Shown one piece after another: positions 61,250 to 62,349 of a stretch of DNA of 64,000 bases. The stretch lies in assembly GCF_900129385.1 (NCBI RefSeq), contig NZ_FQVO01000003.1, positions 186,001 to 250,000 on the forward strand, read 5' to 3'. The notes under the pieces were generated by a model, which did no database searches, was not told where the DNA came from, and saw only the letters and a list, made by a program, of their open reading frames with translations. The position numbers were made by a program, and so were the translations under genes. The stretch comes from Chryseobacterium takakiae (lineage in GTDB: Bacteria; Bacteroidota; Bacteroidia; Flavobacteriales; Weeksellaceae). Each line of letters opens with the position of its first letter. Position 1 is the first letter of the stretch.

Positions 61250-62288
61250 ATTTGCGTTTTTGTATACAATTCAATTATTTCATTTATATTTTCAAAATCA
61301 TCACTCAGTGATTCTATATTTCCGCTTTCAATATTTTTATTTAATCTTTTAACAAACAGCTTGAAAATTTGATCGTCTGTTATTTTAAAGTTTGGTTTGT
61401 TTTTAAAAATGTATAATTCTTTTATAGTAGATATATCTTCATTAGAAGAAGCAAAAAGATAGTCATTGTCTATTTCAAACATTGAATCAATATGGTAAGT
61501 GTAAATTTTTTGATTTGCTATGCGTTTTAATGTTTTTTCGGCTTTATCAATTTTGAAGTCTGTAAGATATTTTGTTGATGTAAAATTGATATAAATCTTA
61601 TTTTTGTTCTGATCTTCAAAAGTCAAGAATCTTGACGATTTTGTGAACATCATTTTTTCAAAAAAAAGATCTAATGAATTATTGAAGTCCTTTTTTACTT
61701 TTTGTATATAAAATTTTGTTTTTATTTCTCTTATTAATTCTTCATTCAATATTTTTTTTCTGTCATTGCTTAAAATGAAAGTAAATACATTGTTATATAA
61801 ATTAATTATTAATAGAATAAAAAAGATGAAAGAGTATCCCAAAAAGAGAAGAATGTCATGTTTAGTTCGAGGAATAGATTCTCCCCAGATATTTAGTAGG
61901 ACTAAATAAAAGATTATAGAAAATCCTAAATAAGTAATAAATTTATATTTAACTTTTTTTTGAATGATATGCTCGAAATGATCTCTATCATCTTTTAAAT
62001 GAGTCAATAATAAGTTAGTTATTGTTAGGTTTAATGTTACGAATGTAATGGCGCTACTTGTTAATATTTTCAACACATCATCATAATTAAATTTTACAAA
62101 TCCTAAAAAATTATTATCAAAATAATCATATAAGAATATTATTGTTATTGGTATTAGGAATAAAATGATAAGTTGCTTGAAATTTAGTTTAGTAATTGGT
62201 TCTAATATACTATCCCACCAGTTTTTTTATTAACAAAATCTGGCATATCATTATCAATTTGGATTTGGATTTGTTTTAGAAGAGTCAT
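61246..62288 (-). CDS. Four-helix membrane protein of unknown function, frameshifted near its start
   Basis: The main frame is open from 62226 to 61246 and has no early ATG (first usable start GTG 62076). Upstream in another frame, ATG 62288 begins MTLLKQIQIQIDNDMPDFVN and runs into a homopolymer of seven A (62228-62222). Adding one A there joins it to NWWDSILEPITKLNFKQLII and the rest, giving one protein of about 347 residues with four membrane helices (FKQLIILFLIPITIIFLYDYF; VLKILTSSAITFVTLNLTI; FITYLGFSIIFYLVLLNIW; LLFLGYSFIFFILLIINLY) and a cytoplasmic C-terminal part. The frameshift may be a real mutation, switchable slippage or a sequencing error. No domain is recognised. It is coupled to the 573-residue gene. 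Confidence 0.6.
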
Positions 62289-62291
62289 CTG

Positions 62292-62349
62292 GTTAGTTAG
62301 TTAGTTAGTTAGTTAGTTAGTTAGTTAGTTAGTTAGTTAGTTAGTTAGT
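62292..62349. repeat. Tetranucleotide tandem repeat, (GTTA) x 14.5
   Basis: Fifty-eight bases of uninterrupted GTTA (CTAA on the minus strand). It covers the stop codon of the YciI-like gene (62347-62345) and ends three bases before ATG 62288 of the membrane protein. A perfect repeat of this length is prone to slipped-strand copy change. Located in the translation initiation region, a change would alter spacing upstream of the start. TAA recurs in all frames, so no read-through translation is possible. Confidence 0.95.

Follow-up and report, generated by a model that had tools for sequence, protein, structure and literature searches.

A perfect GTTA tract that contains the stop codon of a YciI-like gene in Chryseobacterium takakiae is probably a slippage-expanded microsatellite

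Gene order and anatomy of the GTTA tract

In the window, i.e., the whole 64-kb stretch of Chryseobacterium takakiae DNA that was analyzed, all genes between positions 59052 and 63986 are located on the minus strand. A gene for a nicotinate phosphoribosyltransferase (62862 to 63986; Pfam NAPRTase) is followed by the gene for a YciI-like protein of 170 residues (62345 to 62857; Pfam YCII, 3.9e-11). The latter is the conserved gene on the 5′ side of a variable slot, which here holds an accessory two-gene module consisting of a membrane-protein frame (61246 to 62226) and a gene for a 573-residue partner protein (59528 to 61249). On its 3′ side, the slot is bordered by a DUF5995 gene (59052 to 59498), whose product is cut to 148 residues by an in-frame TAA.

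The space between the YciI-like gene and the ATG at 62288 (62286 to 62288) is taken up by a tandem array with the unit TAAC on the minus, i.e., coding, strand and GTTA on the plus strand. TRF and a script place it at 62292 to 62349 (58 nt; period 4, 14.5 copies, 100% matches), in agreement with the 14.5 perfect copies counted in a first-pass annotation made from the sequence alone. That annotation had assigned the repeat to positions 62286 to 62349; the tract does lie there, but the tract proper is confined to 62292 to 62349, the remainder being the ATG and a gap of 3 nt (62291 to 62289; minus-strand sequence CAG), which bears out the remark that the repeat stops three bases short of the ATG. 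It had also been described as filling the space between the YciI stop codon and the ATG. While it reaches almost to the ATG, the TAA stop codon itself (62347 to 62345) sits within the first repeat units, 56 nt ahead of the ATG. The tract is an intercistronic, noncoding array of a short unit, and as such an intergenic microsatellite or VNTR, and with 58 nt and 14.5 perfect copies it has the dimensions of a contingency locus. Whichever strand and frame a TAAC/GTTA array is read in, it contains stop codons, and for this reason it is tolerated only outside coding sequence.

By base composition, a run this long would be expected approximately 7e-27 times in 64 kb; the second-longest period-4 run in the 64-kb window measures 12 nt. 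When the whole genome was scanned, the tract was the one array of (GTTA)6 or longer. In 444 kb of the same genome (the window plus 380 kb sampled), three arrays of period 4 to 9 with a length of at least 30 nt were found, the GTTA tract included, the other two being (CACTAAAA)12.5 and an AAAATCT array.

The slot behind the YciI-like gene and its module

A match to the YciI-like protein was found in 123 of 148 genus genomes (the own genome included; five matches are short pieces). Genes in the relatives were taken as the longest open frames, without a gene finder. Among the 29 relatives inspected, which are the best 29 of 122 with a match, none has an array directly behind the YciI stop codon. 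In these relatives, the slot contents vary by species or are lacking altogether, several genomes continuing straight to DUF5995. In G151, G009, and G066, which have the most similar YciI-like proteins, the ATG of a different gene follows 2 to 4 nt past the YciI stop.

Relatives of the 573-residue protein occur in 4 of 148 genus genomes (the own genome included) and in Flavobacterium reichenbachii. The module of a membrane protein and a protein of 573 to 652 residues was met in few species (window, 59528 to 62226; loci L062, L063, L064, and L070). The membrane-protein frame, which extends over 326 residues from stop to stop, has homologues in L062 (36%), L063 (39%), and also L070, whereas the corresponding gene in L064 gave no match to the membrane-protein query and is a partner by position only. 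None of these four related modules (L064 by position) carries an array 5′ of its membrane gene, and the idea that the repeat travels with the module was rejected for this reason. An anti-phage label for the module was likewise rejected: PADLOC returned only LeoA (E 0.0017) for the 573-residue protein and no match for the membrane protein, NCBIfam gave no match, and Pfam gave none for the 573-residue protein and only a sub-threshold Tetraspanin hit (E 0.059) for the membrane protein. A structure prediction for the 573-residue protein, made with one homologue, reached a mean pLDDT of 47 and was set aside as a basis for fold searching. The neighbors of the module in L062 and L063 look to us like a defense-rich island.

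The broken frame behind ATG 62288

The ATG at 62288 opens only 28 codons (62202 to 62288), which end in TAG. The long membrane-protein frame is out of register with it, and the earliest ATG, GTG, or TTG within that frame is the GTG at 62076. The first 22 residues encoded from ATG 62288 nevertheless resemble the N-termini of the membrane-protein homologues: the joint score with L062, L063, and L070 was reached in 34 of 5,000 shuffles. Taken singly, the scores were reached in 13 (L062), 741 (L063), 374 (L070), and 3,181 (the distant L064) of 5,000 shuffles, L062 alone being individually convincing. In view of this resemblance, the membrane gene probably started at ATG 62288 originally and is now frame-shifted, i.e., broken in the assembly. 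The assignment of this ATG as the start of the membrane gene can therefore be kept for its probable origin, but not for the present frame.

The change of register between the two frames falls in a run of seven A residues (62222 to 62228), and the membrane genes of L062 and L070 are open across the equivalent point. One could accordingly suppose that the A7 run (62228 to 62222) is the actual switch, slipping the gene in and out of frame, with the tetranucleotide tract as a bystander. However, the run is short, the N-terminal codons of the homologues L062, L063, and L064 contain no run of this kind, and a plain inactivating mutation or a sequencing error, which may indeed have caused the frame break, would explain the data equally well. 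In addition, the neighboring DUF5995 gene and the module genes in G116 are also broken, which suggests decay, so that we give little credence to a switch at A7. For comparison, DUF5995 is intact, with 251 residues, in G151, G009, G066, and G029. Since the neighbors of 255, 502, and 219 residues have the same lengths in G151, the two broken genes (membrane and DUF5995) look like local decay rather than poor assembly.

GTTA arrays at stop codons of other genes

A scan of 173 genus genomes turned up arrays of (GTTA)7 or longer in 20 of them; in a sample of 395 genomes from the order, 10 had such arrays, and two of these 10 belong to the genus. The unit is not unique in this respect, as arrays of the reversed unit ATTG occur in 16 of 173 genus genomes. 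Among the GTTA arrays listed, 17 distinct loci were distinguished in the genus, with G097, G116, G117, and G192 each represented by their first array. In G018, two contig ends bear an array, and these were treated as a single locus, which they presumably are. After exclusion of L101 and L119, which have no flanking 3′ end, and of L102/L084, which lies far from called genes, 14 loci remained. In 7 of these 14, the stop codon of the flanking gene is located inside the array, compared to an expectation of 0.71 for arrays placed uniformly in the spacer, with each orthologous group counted once (P of approximately 7e-8, under a null that was built after seeing the data). The seven stop-anchored genes are those for the YciI-like protein, a LuxE-like protein, a DnaJ-domain protein (three genomes), DUF2867, DUF1294, a 205-residue protein (six genomes), and a DHH-family protein (four genomes). 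Six of them are backed as real genes by Pfam; the 205-residue protein belongs to no Pfam family, yet it was found in 170 of 173 genomes. The array at the DHH/patatin locus occupies a convergent junction and has no start codon that it could control. At this site, one genome (G063, L173) has a different array, repeated TAAGAATT, that also starts at the DHH stop codon, where relatives carry GTTA.

Stop-anchoring is not universal. The unit ATTG, which contains stops as well and served as a control, was found at stop codons in 2 of 16 loci, or in up to 5 if frames of 50 to 53 residues are believed (one locus per genome; five of the 16 arrays fall within doubtful open frames). Outside the genus, GTTA arrays are clearly stop-anchored in 1 of 8 loci (one locus per genome). 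With respect to the other end of the arrays, no more than 10 nt separate the array from the next start codon in 5 of the 17 listed genus loci, namely, the window, the 205-aa/IVP locus, L105, L107/L088, and L083; outside the genus, this end lies near a start in 2 of 8 loci, at 10 and 12 nt. Over both sets, the gaps range from 1 to 12 nt.

The arrays might also mark junctions where the insertion of accessory genes took place immediately downstream of a stop codon, through a mechanism that either employs repeats of this type or leaves them behind. Variable gene slots are present behind both the YciI-like gene and the 205-residue gene, all 6 arrays seen behind the 205-residue gene precede a 23S_rRNA_IVP gene, and the 3 of 30 205-aa loci that carry such a gene are the 3 with arrays. 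Against this stand the 29 inspected YciI loci, none of which has the repeat though many hold an inserted gene, the DHH/patatin array, which lacks an inserted gene, and the neighborhood of the array in the window, where no mobility gene was seen; an insertion mark is therefore very improbable.

Copy number at orthologous sites

The DHH/patatin junction permits a comparison of copy number at orthologous stop codons. Behind the DHH stop, 2 units are present in G116 and G117, 3 in G001, approximately 9 in G174, and approximately 27 to 29 in G084, G181, and G097; most of the 30 DHH loci inspected have no tract. The letters behind the tract are near-identical in G001 and G181, and the DHH proteins of these two genomes are 99% identical. 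A series of this kind is expected from replication slippage out of a stop-codon seed. Differences in length by whole units were seen at the sister DHH/patatin and 205-aa/IVP loci, the site in the window being without an orthologous array. The differences between close species, ranging from 3 to approximately 29 copies, support the classification of the GTTA tract as slippage-prone, and by analogy with these sister sites its own length probably varies.

Two contig ends of G018 lie at an array. Draft assemblies can thus break or collapse tracts of this type, and copy numbers taken from them have to be read with care. It is, however, extremely unlikely that the length or even the existence of the tract in the window is an assembly artifact, as the tract is interior to a 358-kb contig and the single-contig genomes G084 and G117 bear arrays of the same kind.

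Together with the anatomy of the tract, these observations make it probable that it arose as a microsatellite at a stop codon and lengthened by slippage in a variable slot, its influence on initiation being graded at most. A TAAC seed at the TAA stop of the YciI-like gene would have begun the tract, and replication slippage would have extended it into the short spacer in front of the site that the accessory two-gene module occupies. Its length would vary in a nearly neutral manner, without the tract being a dedicated switch. Several observations count against this explanation. The 5 of 17 arrays that lie near a start exceed what a process acting purely at 3′ ends needs, with the caveat that in such short spacers an array fills nearly all of the space. 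Stop-anchoring beyond the genus is clear at a single locus out of 8, and for the control unit ATTG it was seen at 2, or up to 5, of 16 loci. The VNTR loci of an F. psychrophilum isolate, reported as unchanged in a stability test (PMC4501049), also count here.

Possible effect on expression

Because the tract is perfect, a change of copy number would leave the bases directly 5′ of the ATG as they are and alter only the distance to the YciI stop codon. The first-pass view that the repeat works by spacing rather than by frame is correct insofar as spacing is all that copy number can change, but switching of the membrane gene is not supported. No TAnnTTTG promoter box (the Bacteroidetes consensus) was found on the minus strand from 62281 to position 64000, the end of the window, which suggests that the module is probably transcribed from upstream, and a role of the tract as a promoter-spacing element was rejected on the same basis; three such boxes are located inside module genes. 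The tract thus lies neither in the frame nor in the promoter of an intact gene, being intercistronic, in front of a broken frame, and without a consensus promoter box. In F. johnsoniae and in Bacteroidetes generally, translation is described as initiating without a Shine-Dalgarno sequence and as tuned by leader structure and by an A at position −3 (PMC6847099). Position −3 of ATG 62288 is a C. The predicted openness of the start region amounts to 0.55 at 2 copies, 0.61 at 14 copies, and 0.70 at 30 copies. A graded effect on initiation, via the coupling distance or via openness, is possible, given also that 5 of the 17 genus loci and 2 of the 8 others have their array near a start codon. Within the preferred explanation, a stop-codon-born microsatellite, the tract would at most loosen translational coupling, presumably weakly (56 nt compared to 2 to 4 nt in three relatives), and may make the start region slightly more open.

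A stronger version would be a phase-variable rheostat, in which added and lost units adjust how well the module mRNA is translated or how stable it is, as reported for the AGAT tract in the leader of Moraxella uspA2. This version draws on the position of the array beside a start codon here, at four other genus loci, and at the two loci outside the genus, on the large copy-number differences at the sister locus, on the predicted increase of openness with copies, and on the uspA2 precedent as described in PMC4679880. We regard it as rather unlikely, given that the downstream frame is broken, that the tract is absent from the module in four relatives, that the local initiation sequence is invariant to copy number, that the predicted folding effect is small and smooth, and that sister arrays also occur at a convergent junction, where there is no start codon for them to act on. 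The phase-variable switch of the membrane gene put forward in the first-pass annotation is not supported in view of the first two of these points and is further disfavored by the constancy of the start-adjacent bases, the smooth change in openness, and the stop-anchoring of the sister arrays, one of them at a convergent junction. An on/off switch is not indicated, and an expression-switch interpretation is not specifically supported.

It is also conceivable, if unlikely, that the stop-anchored TAAC/TTAG arrays form a recurrent element of the genus that acts as a slippage-driven dial coupling neighbor genes in operon slots. Growth of the tract would then part the terminating ribosome from the next start, by 56 nt instead of a few, and leave an open, A-rich leader that would suit initiation without Shine-Dalgarno pairing.

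Relation to known repeats

Tetranucleotide contingency loci in coding sequences switch the frame inside the gene. The GTTA tract differs from these in that, with stops in every frame, it cannot lie inside a gene; with loci of this sort, for example those of the Haemophilus LOS genes (cf. PMC2651432, PMC3938747), it shares a perfect tetranucleotide tract of contingency-locus length. A closer likeness exists to the TAACTGA heptamer repeats described from marine Beggiatoaceae, cyanobacteria, and five Bacteroidetes (MacGregor 2015, PMC4679880). According to that description, these are intergenic tandem repeats with stops in all forward frames, often lie within a few nucleotides of a start codon, and in 13 cases in the BOGUAY genome overlap the stop codon of the upstream gene, just as the GTTA tract contains the YciI stop; their positions are strain-specific and their indels unit-sized, and they are presented there without an established mechanism. 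The GTTA tract shares forward orientation, start proximity, and upstream-stop overlap with the TAACTGA type but not the unit (TAAC/GTTA). The heptamer is reported in 169 sets of 2 to 6 copies in BOGUAY, with as many as 43 copies in certain Bacteroidetes and cyanobacteria (PMC4679880), as opposed to a 4-nt unit with 14.5 copies and one array of (GTTA)6 or longer in the genome analyzed here. The best precedent for expression tuning, via the same source, is the tract of variable copy number between promoter and start in the 5′ untranslated region of Moraxella catarrhalis uspA2 (PMC4679880). It too is a tetranucleotide tract before a start codon; it lies, however, in the leader of a surface-protein gene and its effect on expression was tested, whereas the GTTA tract is intercistronic and precedes a broken frame.

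In Flavobacterium psychrophilum, VNTRs that differ between isolates are used for typing; like the GTTA tract, they have short units and are mostly intergenic (PMC4501049). Their units are mostly of 7 nt, with one tetranucleotide, GTTT, and the main text of that paper mentions no stop codons. The VNTR loci of an isolate were unchanged in a stability test (PMC4501049), and by analogy related arrays need not be fast. With intergenic short repeats already known in Bacteroidota from these two sources (PMC4501049, PMC4679880), the earlier statement that such tracts are rarely reported in Flavobacteriia appears doubtful in view of the F. psychrophilum VNTRs; GTTA arrays of this genus were the subject of none of the top-ranked matches in the open-licence PMC literature. 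Judged by its likeness to the TAACTGA repeats and the F. psychrophilum VNTRs, the GTTA tract belongs to a known kind of slippage-prone microsatellite in Bacteroidota.

The most interesting aspect of the tract is its probable birth at a stop codon, which is visible across species: orthologous stop codons with 2, 3, approximately 9, and approximately 29 units in one genus offer a clean system for repeat birth, as seed and expanded forms are present side by side. Should copy number change expression, the tract would be a rare example of tuning through spacing among bacteria that initiate translation without Shine-Dalgarno sequences. For now, it mainly serves as a warning that a long repeat beside a start codon may reflect the stop codon upstream and not the gene downstream.

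Other tandem arrays

Genes for 23S_rRNA_IVP (PF05635) may tend to adjoin tandem repeats of varied unit. An array of period 4 to 9 with at least 24 nt was found within approximately 3.3 kb in 8 of 30 IVP loci (of 73 matches; 8 genomes), three of the 8 having been known before the test; among them are L220:17025-17534 (own genome, C25), L022:7481-8055, L104, L250, L257, L262, and L269, with arrays on both sides of the IVP gene in L022 and L104. For background, the same scan gave 1 array for the 29 YciI loci and 5 for the 380 kb sampled from the own genome; for two sets of 30 loci each that had been chosen for their arrays, it gave 5 (DHH) and 9 (205-aa). ATTG arrays are located approximately 110 to 165 nt upstream of genes in L183, L187, L189, L192, and L194 (G010, G018, G189, G143, and G112), which we take to be ParA-like and possibly parts of mobile elements. 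The AAAATCT array of the own genome (L219:16349-16381, C25) ends 9 nt before the ATG of the second of its flanking genes, which are presumably rpsC and rplP, at a junction within a ribosomal-protein operon.
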